This document shows, piece by piece, positions 5,605-9,338 of a stretch of DNA of 36,432 nucleotides (the first letter of the stretch is position 1; each line of letters starts with the position of its first letter). The DNA is from a bacterium (GTDB lineage: Bacteria > Patescibacteriota > Gracilibacteria > Peribacterales > Peribacteraceae). Location of the stretch: positions 1 to 36,432 of the forward strand of contig JAQCIJ010000008.1 of NCBI GenBank assembly GCA_027592135.1. Reading direction: 5' to 3'. Under the pieces are notes generated by a model. That model searched no databases, was not told the DNA's origin, and worked only from the letters and a program-made list of their open reading frames with translations. Made by a program: the position numbers and the translations under genes.

Positions 5605-6396
5605 TTAGTCAATGATAAATGCAGTTCCACTGAGTAAAAGTTGAACATCACTGCCAAGCACTACTGTTCTCTTGCCAACTGTTTCTTGAATAGAAACATT
5701 GTAGGTAGCACCACTTGGCTGCTGAACACACACCTGTTTTTCATTTTGCGCCAATGCAAGTGCTACAGAGCCAGAGCCACAACCAGTCTCAGGAATAATA
5801 GAGTTGGTAGCAGGGACGCATACTACTGGTGCGATAACATATACACCGTTTTTGCGCCAAAACGGTATAACTCCAAACGCACCGTTCTTAGGAATGCGTG
5901 ATGCAAATCTTCCTCTTACTTCTTCAAATATTTTCAGTGCCGTAGCCTCTGGTACTGCCTCATCTAGGGGAATAAGAAGGTGTGTTATGCCTTCAAGAAA
6001 TACAGCCATGACCCTACTATCAAAATCAACAACTTCCACAGAAGATGGCAATGGTAGCTCTAAAGCTGTGTAGCACTCATTTTCACTGATGGGCGTACAT
6101 GAACATGAAACCAATTGCTCTGTGCCAGATGATGCTAGAATTATTTTCTCTCTGTTATCTCTCAATGATAATAATGTAGCGGTTGAACGTAGGGCATTTA
6201 TACACAACTCTCCTCCCATCATATCAAGACGAGGCGTGGTTGTATTCTCAGAAAGAAATCCCACCTGCTCTGATTGTACAAGCTGACCATTCATGAATGG
6301 TAGTGACATAATTGAACGCTGATTGGCTGCAATTTCTGACTGAATAATCACTGTATCATTTCCTCCTGCCGATAATTTAGTGAAGTTGATTCTCAT
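5605..6396 (-). CDS. DapF-superfamily racemase, closest by eye to CntK (histidine racemase)
   Basis: The 263-residue protein belongs to the cofactor-independent DapF/PhzF-like racemase fold, which uses two Cys as acid/base. Family landmarks are FTKLSAGGNDTVII at the N-terminus, SEQVGFLS, first catalytic Cys in GGELCINALR (about residue 68), second in ETGCGSGSVALA (about 206), then VQQPSG and a final SGTAFI. Order and wording follow staphylococcal CntK (EQVGFIE, GNEFCGN, SCGSG, VHQPGG, TGKAYI) more closely than ordinary DapF. CntK makes D-His for the metallophore staphylopine. The start overlaps the stop of the upstream 471-residue gene by 4 nt (ATGA), so the two are translationally coupled. 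Diaminopimelate epimerase or another amino-acid racemase remains possible. No nicotianamine-synthase-like or opine-dehydrogenase gene is in the window. Confidence 0.7.
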   Translation of the reverse strand: MRINFTKLSAGGNDTVIIQSEIAANQRSIMSLPFMNGQLVQSEQVGFLSENTTTPRLDMMGGELCINALRSTATLLSLRDNREKIILASSGTEQLVSCSCTPISENECYTALELPLPSSVEVVDFDSRVMAVFLEGITHLLIPLDEAVPEATALKIFEEVRGRFASRIPKNGAFGVIPFWRKNGVYVIAPVVCVPATNSIIPETGCGSGSVALALAQNEKQVCVQQPSGATYNVSIQETVGKRTVVLGSDVQLLLSGTAFIID

Positions 6397-7808
6397 GATT
6401 GCAGAGCGGAAAATTCACGACAAAATGACCTAAACTTTTCATATCCCTCGTTCATGAGCTTTGTTGTTTTTTCATCAAAACCTTTCTTTGCTTTGTAGCT
6501 ATAAGCAGTTTCCAAAGGTAACCCTTGAATATCTGCAACCACAGCTAATAAATCCCGTTTCATCCTTTCATCCATTGCTTGATCCTCTACTAGCTGTTCA
6601 AAGCTGCGACTGGCAACATCCTGAACACTCCAATCACCCGCATAGCTTCCGTAGACTGGAAGTTTTCCTGCTGAGCATATCAATTGCCCTCGCAGATATT
6701 CAACTGTTACATCTTCCTGCTGACAAGCAATTGGATCATCTAGTGAAATAATGCCTTCCGCCTCAATGCGTTCACGAAAATACTCTCTTGTGTCTTCTAT
6801 GTTAGCTTCGGCTTTGATTGCTTGTCGCACCAGCCAAAAGACACGTTCTTTGTCCCCTCCAACCATAAAGAGTTTCTTTGGCTTTGCTTCTGCATCTCTA
6901 AGAATTTTTCCAGTGACTGGTGCAATGTCATCACCAGAATAGAGGCTGTGTGCAGTGGAATAGCGCAGTGCATCCTCCGCAGTACTTCCGTTCTTCATGC
7001 CAATTCCTATTACCTTTCCTCTAGCTTTTTCAAAGCTGGGATCAGTTGTTTTCCGTAGTTTCATTGTAAAATAGTCCAATAGCCAATCTAAAGACGACTG
7101 CCTTTCAATTGGCATATCAGTATCAAATGAAATTAACTGCCCTACGTCTGGTTCAAGAAAATGTTCAATGTACGCTTGTAGTAGCGCAAAGTTTCTTTTT
7201 GCAGCTTCTTGCATTCCTTCTGTATCTGCTTGATTTGCATCTGCAACGAATGAATCTGCGGAGTAAAGCAGCACCTTGGGTCTGGCGAGTGTTGGAACAC
7301 GTTCACGCATGGATTCTAAGATTCTTTTTACTGCCAATAGATACGATGGCAGTCGCCCATTTGGTGCAGGTTGTTGGCTACAACCAAAGCCAATGCGTAT
7401 TTGCAGGTCTGAAAATTCTTGTGGGTTTTGGTAGCTGCGAAGCGACATGCGTAGGAGATCACAAATCGCTCGTTCATCAGCAGATTCAATAACTCTGTTG
7501 TTTTGATAGAAGCATGTGAAGATTCTTTTTGTATTTGCGATTGCCTCTTCTCGTTCAGCTACCGGAATAGCACTCAATTCCTGTACAAGAATCGTATTGA
7601 TTGCTTCCTTTTGGAAAACATCGGGGTTGATGCGCTGCTTTTCTGACGTAACGGTAAGAGCTGCACCTTGCCACTGTTTTGCAAGTTGGCTGAGTAAGGA
7701 TGTACGCCAGCTGTCTATCTCTGAGGTGCTGGGCAACGGATATGCCGATGGTGTAGATAATGAAGAAAGCTCCATTGGAAAAATGGGTAGATATAACAAT
7801 CCCCTCAT
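6393..7808 (-). CDS. Uncharacterised 471-residue protein, partner of the CntK-like racemase
   Basis: I do not recognise this family. It is a soluble, mixed alpha/beta protein without a signal peptide or membrane helices. A candidate nucleotide- or substrate-binding half runs from RIGFGCSQQP (about residue 137) through KVLLYSADSFVAD to QLISFDTDMP. A second part has KVIGIGMKNGS and KKLFMVGGDKERVFWLV. Cys-containing LICSAGKLPVYGSYAGDW lies near residue 385. The stop overlaps the racemase start (ATGA), which implies a shared pathway. ATG 7808 lies inside an RNA hairpin (see the 7799-7898 entry). ATG 7775 (MELSSL) is an alternative start outside it. Neither start has a Shine-Dalgarno motif. The gene is preceded by a small His-containing ORF and a promoter, which suggests a three-ORF operon. 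Confidence 0.8.
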   Translation of the reverse strand: MRGLLYLPIFPMELSSLSTPSAYPLPSTSEIDSWRTSLLSQLAKQWQGAALTVTSEKQRINPDVFQKEAINTILVQELSAIPVAEREEAIANTKRIFTCFYQNNRVIESADERAICDLLRMSLRSYQNPQEFSDLQIRIGFGCSQQPAPNGRLPSYLLAVKRILESMRERVPTLARPKVLLYSADSFVADANQADTEGMQEAAKRNFALLQAYIEHFLEPDVGQLISFDTDMPIERQSSLDWLLDYFTMKLRKTTDPSFEKARGKVIGIGMKNGSTAEDALRYSTAHSLYSGDDIAPVTGKILRDAEAKPKKLFMVGGDKERVFWLVRQAIKAEANIEDTREYFRERIEAEGIISLDDPIACQQEDVTVEYLRGQLICSAGKLPVYGSYAGDWSVQDVASRSFEQLVEDQAMDERMKRDLLAVVADIQGLPLETAYSYKAKKGFDEKTTKLMNEGYEKFRSFCREFSALQS

Positions 7809-7898
7809 CAGTGAGGAGGGGGAGATATCGGAGCTAGTTCTTCGTTATATTTAGATCATTACAGACGCACCGATGCCATCCTCTCCTCACAGGAGGGG
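7799..7898 (-). promoter_or_regulatory. Candidate attenuator/RNA switch with two mutually exclusive hairpins
   Basis: Read as minus-strand RNA, hairpin 1 is CCCCUCCU-GUG-AGGAGAGG (7898 to 7880, one C-A mismatch). Hairpin 2 is CCCCUC/GAGGGG (7821-7816 with 7806-7801) and holds the AUG at 7808-7806 of the 471-residue gene. The segment GUGAGGAG (7890-7883) is perfectly complementary over 8 bp to CUCCUCAC (7818-7811), with two more pairs after a mismatch. Forming that long-range duplex destroys both hairpins and frees the start codon. Hairpin 1 begins 6 nt after three tandem His codons of the leader ORF. The pairings are seen in the sequence; regulation is inferred. Confidence 0.5.
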
Positions 7899-7969
7899 CT
7901 GACATGATGATGCTGTTGCTGCTGAACAGCACTGAGAGAGCCTGTAACTGGTGATTGCATACTTTGCAT
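7859..7969 (-). CDS. Putative 36-residue leader peptide with QQQQHHH
   Basis: A short ORF starts at ATG 7969, 10 nt after the -10 element of a good promoter, and ends with TAA at 7859, 51 nt before the next gene. The peptide reads MQSMQSPVTGSLSAV, then four Gln and three consecutive His (residues 20-22, all CAT), then VSPSCEERMASVRL. Hairpin 1 starts just after the His codons, so a ribosome pausing there would cover its 5' arm. Amino-acid biosynthetic leader peptides, such as that of the his operon, use runs of the regulated codon. Here the downstream operon holds a histidine-racemase-like gene. It could also be a chance ORF or a small His-rich protein. Confidence 0.45.
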   Translation of the reverse strand: MQSMQSPVTGSLSAVQQQQHHHVSPSCEERMASVRL

Positions 7970-7979
7970 TTCTGCGGAT

Positions 7980-8007
7980 ATGTTACATAGATATTTTTAC
8001 GAGTCAA
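7980..8007 (-). promoter_or_regulatory. Promoter of the leader/unknown/racemase operon
   Basis: On the minus strand, TTGACT (8007-8002), a 16-nt spacer and TAACAT (7985-7980) form a sigma70-like promoter. Predicted initiation falls near 7973, only a few bases before the leader ORF ATG at 7969. Confidence 0.55.
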
Positions 8008-8022
8008 TAGTTTATAGGCATT

Positions 8023-8238
8023 CTAACCACCGGATGCATCTGTAATGTATGGTGCAGCATTCACTGGTTTCTTTAGGCTATTTACCTCCCTCACATACAC
8101 CCTCTCCCCACCTCTCCAAATACCATTTACTTTTCTAGGCTCAATCCTTTTGTCTAGTTCTACAGTAATACTAAACAGGTAGTAACCATTGGGTGCTTTA
8201 TCACCATTCGATTCGTCGCGCACGTATCGAAGTGCCAC
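8023..8238 (-). CDS. Short hypothetical protein (uncertain)
   Basis: A 71-residue ORF starts with GTG directly after an in-frame TAA. The protein is hydrophilic, with a run of charged residues (ITVELDKRIEPRKVNG) and no recognisable motif, signal or membrane helix. No Shine-Dalgarno or clear -10 element was found at the start. It ends 16 nt before the -35 of the leader-ORF operon. It lies in an accessory stretch that also holds a decayed gene, so it may be a remnant. I cannot assign a function. Confidence 0.35.
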   Translation of the reverse strand: MALRYVRDESNGDKAPNGYYLFSITVELDKRIEPRKVNGIWRGGERVYVREVNSLKKPVNAAPYITDASGG

Positions 8239-8327
8239 TTACTTTATGTCTTTTGTAAGCCATTTAAATAGATAAATAGATATATGAATAGTAAACTGCT
8301 AAATGACTTTTATGTAGTTAGGCATAG

Positions 8328-8648
8328 AGTCATGCAAAATGGATACATGCTCTTGGCATCTCGGTTGAAGACAAAACACCAATGGCACATGCGATGATTA
8401 CCCAGGCACTCGGTACGTTTCTACTTGCATGGATCATCGGCGTAACAGCGGAAGAAAGCTCACTACAGCTTGCTACTCTTGTCGCGCTTGCTATTGCTTG
8501 TTTGATCAAAGCCAATGGATTGTTAGCAAAGAAGAAGAGAGCTGCCATCGTAGTGGAGACTGCATTCGTACTCGCGATGGTTGTTGTCATGATTCTTGCT
8601 CACGCTGTTGTGCGTAGTTGCCATTTAATTTACGGTTCCATCTGTTGA
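8328..8648 (+). pseudogene. Decayed DUF1761-like membrane protein fragment
   Basis: The open frame runs from just after TAG (8325-8327). Family-like sequence (KWIHALGISVEDKTP, then MAHAMITQALGTFLLAWIIG) begins upstream of the first ATG at 8382, so an intact N-terminus is missing. DUF1761 proteins normally have an extra N-terminal helix before a WxxxxGxxxED loop of this kind. The remaining part has three hydrophobic segments ending AHAVV. The tail then runs 24 nt into the 3' end of the convergent peptidase gene with unrelated residues. Both ends therefore look damaged. The alternative is a genuine 88-residue protein starting at 8382. Confidence 0.5.
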
Positions 8649-9338
8649 TAGATAGTGGGTTTTTATTTCCATTTCATTATTTATATCTACCCAATATGCT
8701 TTTGCCTTTTTCCTGGAGCTTATTGCCAATTGAATTTCTTCATTAATGAAATGAACGGCAGCACCATCGTCAATAGCATAACCAGGTTTTGATTTTTTGC
8801 TTTTTATGAGCTTGATGTAGGAAGGCCTTCTTTTGGTTTCACCGTCATAGTGAGGACAGTGGCTTCCTGGCAAAATTCCTAAGCATTTGAGAGTGTATAA
8901 TGGTTGATTTTGTGGATCTGTAATGCCCTGTTCAAACCAACATATTGAACCTGCACTCAGACCTGAAAGGATAACCCCATTTTTGTAAGCTAACCTAAGA
9001 ATGTTATCAATGTTCCATTCTTTCCACAGAACTAGAGCATTTCGGGTGCTTCCACCTCCTACAAAGATAATATCCTGTGAAAGAAGATGGCTTTCAAGGT
9101 TAGAAAAATTTGGTTTGAATAATGATATGTGAGTGGGTATACAATCCATTTGATCAAAGCATTTGTAAAATCTTTGAATATAATCCTCGGAGTCGCCACT
9201 TGCTGTGGGCAAAAAACATATTTTGGGTTGCTGCTTATTAGATTGGTTTAGGATATATCTATCCAGTCTCTTGTTCCTAGGTTCCATAGAAAACCCACCT
9301 CCTCCAAATGCAATTATTTGTCTTTGTATGGGACTCAT
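8625..9338 (-). CDS. Peptidase E-like (S51 family) serine hydrolase
   Basis: The 237-residue cytoplasmic protein has the class-I glutamine-amidotransferase-like fold of peptidase E and cyanophycinase. The N-terminal strand IIAFGGGGF is followed by ICFLPTASGDS, IIFVGGGSTRNAL (about 90-102) and the nucleophile elbow GLSAGSICWF with the predicted catalytic Ser at residue 128. A later GxHCPHYDG segment supplies a candidate His. PepE enzymes cleave Asp-X dipeptides; this one is nearer to the broader PepE/YgaJ-type group, so the substrate is not certain. The start ATG 9338 fits the family N-terminus. Upstream (9339-9525) lies an array of inverted GTATAA boxes that may regulate it. Confidence 0.8.
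   Translation of the reverse strand: MSPIQRQIIAFGGGGFSMEPRNKRLDRYILNQSNKQQPKICFLPTASGDSEDYIQRFYKCFDQMDCIPTHISLFKPNFSNLESHLLSQDIIFVGGGSTRNALVLWKEWNIDNILRLAYKNGVILSGLSAGSICWFEQGITDPQNQPLYTLKCLGILPGSHCPHYDGETKRRPSYIKLIKSKKSKPGYAIDDGAAVHFINEEIQLAISSRKKAKAYWVDINNEMEIKTHYLSTDGTVN

Follow-up and report, generated by a model that had tools for sequence, protein, structure and literature searches.

Organization of the locus and its leader region

The analysed window, i.e. the whole stretch of 36,432 nt, contains on its minus strand two adjacent genes which are preceded by a short leader region (Table 1). The promoter (TTGACT-N16-TAACAT), a 36-codon ORF and the sequence QQQQHHH within it had been described in the initial annotation, and all of them are present at the site. 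The leader ORF (MQSMQSPVTGSLSAVQQQQHHHVSPSCEERMASVRL) begins 10 nt after the -10 box and is apparently near-leaderless. Both of the described hairpins were found as well, with the coordinates of hairpin 1 slightly corrected from 7898-7880 to about 7901-7877. It indeed follows the CAT codons, its first pair lying 2 nt past them instead of the six nucleotides given before, and its strong core starts at 7895. The stem of hairpin 2 comprises seven pairs. The perfect pairing between segments of the two hairpins was confirmed in eight of eight positions (GUGAGGAG, 7890-7883, with CUCCUCAC, 7818-7811). This core is extended via AUCGG/CCGAU to a longer duplex of GGAUGGCAUCGG with CCGAUAUC, and a 106-nt piece with the extended duplex showed a folding energy of -39.2 kcal/mol and a z of -3.2.

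Table 1. Features of the gene pair and its leader region, in order of transcription
Feature	Position	Strand	Remarks
Promoter	7980..8007	-	-35 TTGACT 8007-8002, 16-nt spacer, -10 TAACAT 7985-7980
Leader ORF, 36 codons, QQQQHHH	7859..7969	-	ATG 7969, TAA 7859
Three CAT (His) codons, CATCATCAT	7904..7912	-	read from sequence; putative stalling site
Hairpin 1 (segments 1:2)	about 7877..7901	-	-9.4 kcal/mol
Antiterminator 5' strand GUGAGGAGAGGAUGGCAUCGGUG	7868..7890	-	folding and covariation
Antiterminator 3' strand CUCCGAUAUCUCCCCCUCCUCAC	7811..7833	-	folding and covariation
Hairpin 2 (segments 3:4), putative terminator	7801..7821	-	-11.7 kcal/mol; same hairpin in homologues, mostly with T-run
Weak U-tract AUUGUUAUAU after hairpin 2	7791..7800	-	5 U in first 8
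Gene 1, 460 aa, class I aminoacyl-tRNA synthetase (TyrRS/TrpRS) fold	6393..7775	-	predicted structure; no Pfam/NCBIfam family
Gene 2, DapF fold, histidine-racemase-like	5605..6396	-	NCBIfam matches; C65, C206

Upstream of the leader, the intergenic DNA at 8084-8308 showed 73-84% identity to intergenic stretches in two other genomes (G003 and G011). A short motif of this region, AAATGGCTTACA, is also intergenic in several genomes. The region as a whole looks like a repeat or gene debris. When the same intergenic DNA was sought in close relatives, only fragments 5' of the leader matched. Five tRNA genes (Val, Ile, Phe, Pro and Arg) are distributed across the window at 2242, 5449, 17533, 28117 and 35008.

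The downstream gene pair

Sequence searches of gene 1 against Pfam, NCBIfam and PDB as well as an hhalign comparison with the genome's own TyrRS gave no match. Its assignment originates from the AlphaFold model (pTM 0.82), for which structural comparison (VIA) gave a Z of 17.9 with 299 aligned residues and an rmsd of 4.1, and Foldseek a match to the synthetase fold with an E of 7.7e-5. Neither HIGH nor KMSKS was apparent when the conserved columns were read by eye. Cyclodipeptide synthases were considered as well, as they comprise a TyrRS fold and take aminoacyl-tRNA as substrate; they are not among the 50 structural matches listed for gene 1, which proves nothing. As a working guess, the TyrRS-fold protein might act together with the racemase on a D- or L-amino acid or on its tRNA ester.

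Gene 2 matched the NCBIfam models of CntK and of the Fusobacterium histidine racemase with E of 3.6e-20 and 3.5e-22, at scores of 72.6 and 79.3 bits that lie below the curated cut-offs of 300 and 400. Its profile matched the histidine racemase structure 9cr6 in the PDB with an E of 2.3e-41. It shares with these enzymes the DapF fold and two conserved cysteines, C65 and C206, which are invariant in six relatives and which we take, by analogy to DapF, to be the catalytic pair. It differs from them, besides the low scores, in its TyrRS-fold partner, and no CntL or CntM was seen adjoining.

The pair (5605-7775 on the minus strand here; L022, L036, L023 and L037 elsewhere) is rare, each protein being found in 10 of 353 genomes, and its named relatives belong to Candidatus Peregrinibacteria and Gracilibacteria. 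In most relatives it adjoins hisS. It follows this gene in G017, G040 and, with one 120-aa ORF in between, G218, while hisS lies about 3 kb from the pair in G287. G307 has the racemase-like gene behind hisS, with a gene for an aromatic amino acid lyase nearby. The pairs adjoining hisS in G017, G218 and G040 showed no His-codon attenuator element. A TTG/GTG ORF ending in YHHTF before the racemase of G017 was considered as a leader and rejected, as it leaves no room for hairpins.

The link between a histidine-responsive control and a racemase-like gene, drawn in the initial annotation, is supported by these hisS neighbourhoods and by a further genome (G030), in which the element precedes a histidine-racemase-like gene. 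Judged from sequence and neighbourhood, the pair probably comprises histidine-handling genes, and the element points to a function related to histidine for this so far unnamed combination of a racemase and a TyrRS-fold protein. A shorter homologue of the latter was found beside an Asp/Glu racemase in three genomes (G002, G003 and G213; L039, L040 and L041). Racemase-like fusions at two other loci are followed by D-Ala-D-Ala dipeptidase-like genes (Peptidase_M15; L038, 4309-5025, and L116, 2000-2539), which hints at D-amino acid metabolism.

Homologous elements in related genomes

A first covariance model built from four seeds, this locus included, detected the element at E<=0.5 in 45 genomes out of the 353 available for the class, and a second model detected it in 48 genomes at E<=0.1. 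Within the family Peribacteraceae (Candidatus Peregrinibacteria, CPR), the second model found it in 41 of 74 genomes at E<=1e-9. Since this locus was among the first seeds, it contributed in part to the collection of the relatives. A model made from 26 relatives without this locus matched the site with an E of 4.4e-17 (70.9 bits), while elsewhere in 0.88 Mb of this genome, the antisense of the site itself apart, no match was better than an E of 0.51.

The same 26 relatives, again without this locus, were aligned by plain, structure-free MAFFT. In this alignment, 92.1% of the antiterminator cells were paired, and 42 cells carried double changes, compared to 14.8+-4.6 in shuffled and at most 6 in slid versions. 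With 41 sequences, the double changes amounted to 128 versus 45.8+-5.8 in shuffles. On the evidence of these alignments, the long-range pairing covaries strongly. The test proposed in the initial annotation, i.e. a covariation of the pairing in homologous operons, gave a positive result: the leader, hairpin 1, the alternative pairing and the terminator recur in some 40 relatives, for the most part ahead of genes for histidine biosynthesis, and many of the changes are compensatory.

Inspection of 40 leaders revealed HHH in 17 and HH in another 17, while four comprise spaced His and two Tyr-Tyr; in some of the leaders with HH only, these two residues are part of a YerC motif located more 5'. The element is followed by hisG or phosphoribosyl-AMP cyclohydrolase (hisI) genes in at least 22 of the 40 cases. 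Neither Rfam His_leader nor T-box matched at 7600-8700 up to an E of 5, and at gathering scores no Rfam match was obtained in the window or in six relatives; as far as these searches reach, the element is covered by no Rfam family.

Folding of the leader RNA and proposed mechanism

For the RNA 7973-7790 without a ribosome, the predicted probability of the long-range duplex was 0.05, and it rose to 0.96-1.0 once a ribosome was placed on a His codon. The initial proposal that a paused ribosome would open hairpin 1 and allow the long-range duplex agrees with both folding and covariation. For transcripts extended to 7750 or 7700, a weaker switch was predicted, which depended on the assumed footprint. 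With the RNA cut shorter at its 5' end, equilibrium folding at this locus already favoured the antiterminator without a ribosome, and the same was observed for several homologues. The OFF state must therefore rest on the order of co-transcriptional folding. These equilibrium results, the weaker switch of the longer transcripts, the weak T-run after hairpin 2 at this locus and the pairs next to hisS in G017, G218 and G040, which lack the element, speak against the mechanism proposed below.

From the architecture, its recurrence in the family, the compensatory changes in 2:3 and the agreement of the leader codons with the pathway served by the gene that follows, we consider it very likely that the element acts as a classical 1-2-3-4 attenuator, which responds to histidine by means of the translating ribosome. 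Transcription would start near 7973 and the leader ORF would be translated at once. With plentiful histidine, the ribosome would pass the His codons, hairpin 1 (1:2) would form or re-form behind it, and the subsequent formation of hairpin 2 (3:4) would end transcription before the operon. If charged tRNA-His is scarce, the ribosome would stall on CATCATCAT and cover segment 1, so that segment 2 could pair with segment 3 (7890-7868 x 7833-7811). Hairpin 2 would thereby be blocked and the TyrRS-fold and His-racemase-like genes would be transcribed. The initial interpretation of a control by histidine supply via the leader codons appears largely right, as homologous elements precede his genes.

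Start of gene 1 and the role of hairpin 2

The level at which hairpin 2 acts depends on the start of gene 1. The homologues of gene 1 align from the ATG at 7775, which probably represents its start instead of the ATG at 7808. Hairpin 2 consequently lies in the untranslated region, the place of a classical attenuator terminator, and probably functions as a (weak) intrinsic terminator. In the homologous elements it likewise lies upstream of the start codon, with clear T-runs in most relatives; since an automatic terminator scorer picked wrong hairpins at a few loci, only the general trend was used here.

The initial annotation had instead placed the AUG of the next gene at 7808, buried in hairpin 2 and freed by the long-range duplex. 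In favour of this translational attenuation, the AUG at 7808 does lie within hairpin 2 and the T-run of hairpin 2 is weak at this locus. However, the homologues start at the position of 7775, the G of the AUG 7808 usually remains paired in the antiterminator state, and T-runs such as TTTTTTT in G030 follow the homologous hairpins ahead of the genes. A burial of the start codon is thus doubtful and we regard it as rather unlikely; the freeing of the start codon is the one weak part of the initial proposal, and termination fits better.

No -10 box was found before 7808 or 7775, so that gene 1 depends on an upstream transcription start. A survey of start signals in 546 kb of the same genome (G000) gave Shine-Dalgarno-like sequences for 3.4% just before starts compared to 10.2% further upstream, and the -10 boxes peaked genome-wide 6-9 nt before the ATG. 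Judged from these signals, most mRNAs in this organism appear to be leaderless. The spacing of 10 nt in front of the leader ORF roughly fits this peak.

Leader peptides as tails of TrpR/YerC-family regulators

The C-terminal tail of a TrpR/YerC-family gene (HisR-type, TIGR02531) serves as the leader peptide in most relatives, and these TIGR02531 proteins sit directly upstream of his genes. In G017, for example, the tail GHHHEAHTREETLASMS lies 70 nt before hisG, and other genomes are similar. The leader in G030 is such a tail as well, and HHH, a hairpin and the terminator follow in the same layout before a racemase-like/GNAT fusion. The 36-codon leader ORF is homologous to these tails (HHH...ER-MAS), and no YerC domain was found upstream of it at this locus, which thus carries the stand-alone form. 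Stand-alone leaders before his genes were found in several other genomes; those of the relatives mostly show TTGAC[AT]-16/17-TANNNT, 6-10 nt before the leader ATG. A further stand-alone His leader precedes a SAM methyltransferase-like gene (L197, 1247-2177).

The missing YerC domain, together with the weak U-tract and an upstream DNA (8308-8084) that resembles debris common to other intergenic regions, could also be explained by a decayed relic, i.e. an element inherited with a since-lost YerC-type regulator gene and no longer working. Against such decay stand the perfect pairing segments (8/8), a promoter and spacing that match the rule of the genome, the stand-alone leaders of other genomes, and the score of 70.9 bits against a model made without this locus, which render the relic improbable.

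A scan for arbitrary pairs of local hairpins that are connected by an alternative duplex of 8 bp gave such a switch in 0 of 2000 dinucleotide shuffles of the leader and in 1 of 436 upstream regions of the genome, namely this locus; as its settings had been chosen with the present case in view, these counts are a guide and not a clean probability. A short ORF with HHH occurred in 2 of 256 upstream regions. That a CAN-repeat and CU-rich hairpins came together by chance, for which the simple repeat CAGCAGCAACAGCATCATCAT and 19 intergenic (CAY)3 sites in the surveyed part of the genome might speak, has a practically negligible probability in view of these counts, the presence in more than half of the family genomes and the match of the model built without this locus, and is already refuted by the family-wide covariation.

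Comparison with known attenuation systems

Attenuation of his genes has been described in Proteobacteria and a few Firmicutes (PMC9413887), and a text search of the literature found no paper on attenuation in CPR/Patescibacteria. The element shares with the his attenuator of Gammaproteobacteria (Rfam His_leader) a leader ORF with tandem His codons, hairpin 1, the competing antiterminator and, putatively, a terminator before the operon. It differs in sequence and lineage, has no Rfam match, possesses a near-leaderless leader ORF without a Shine-Dalgarno sequence and would control a racemase-like/TyrRS-fold pair.

In Firmicutes (Bacillus cereus group, Peptostreptococcaceae and Erysipelotrichales), His attenuators comprise three to five His codons directly before the attenuator structures and occur where HisR is absent (PMC9413887). 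The position of the codons is alike, whereas a TrpR/YerC-family gene contains or precedes most of the elements described here. HisR/YerC of the TrpR family is a DNA-binding repressor in Firmicutes (PMC9413887). The TIGR02531 proteins directly upstream of the his genes correspond to it, but in the relatives their C-terminal tail can in addition be read as the leader peptide of an attenuator, and at the present locus the tail alone is found. This double use of a regulator tail points to one way in which attenuators may come about. Furthermore, the conservation in about 40 genomes suggests a coupling of transcription and translation in these reduced, uncultured bacteria, and a sensing of individual amino acids by this means.

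Leaders for other amino acids

Weaker relatives of the element carry codons for other amino acids, which correspond to the gene behind them: thrS (604.9 bits) is preceded by eight Thr codons (Thr8), citramalate synthase by IISSIII, prephenate dehydrogenase by Tyr-Tyr and aspartokinase by TMKKMTK. The genome of the present locus contains a second attenuator-like leader (MTRRTIIISIIIPRSARG, IIISIII) at 7863-7750 on the minus strand of L088 (G000:C35); TATACT precedes it by 10 nt, and a terminator with a T-run is present. It is followed by a PLP enzyme (PF00291), which reads like a threonine deaminase. A generic attenuator scan of the genome gave 19 candidates, mostly chance, among which the Ile leader alone was persuasive. 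Read from sequence, the agreement between codons, promoter, hairpins and pathway provides the best argument for a function that can be made without an experiment.

Taken together, we somewhat favour a broader reading in which Peregrinibacteria possess a lineage-wide set of ribosome-mediated attenuators for amino acid genes with leaderless leader ORFs. The His version would usually reside in a TrpR/YerC tail, so that one ORF provides both transcription factor and sensor peptide. The present locus would then be a detached copy over a new histidine pathway, formed by the racemase and a TyrRS-fold enzyme that perhaps uses His-tRNA.

The same layout of hairpins, together with leader codon runs for Thr, Lys/Met/Thr, Ile, Tyr or Met, was observed at L241 (879-976), L249 (2257-2362), L251 (996-1092), L253 (3169-3275), L240 (2532-2630) and L242 (994-1089). 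Several of this group precede matching amino acid genes, and the Met leaders (MMMSMMM) precede unnamed proteins. A leader with SYYAF is located before a TauD-family dioxygenase (L244, 853-1673).
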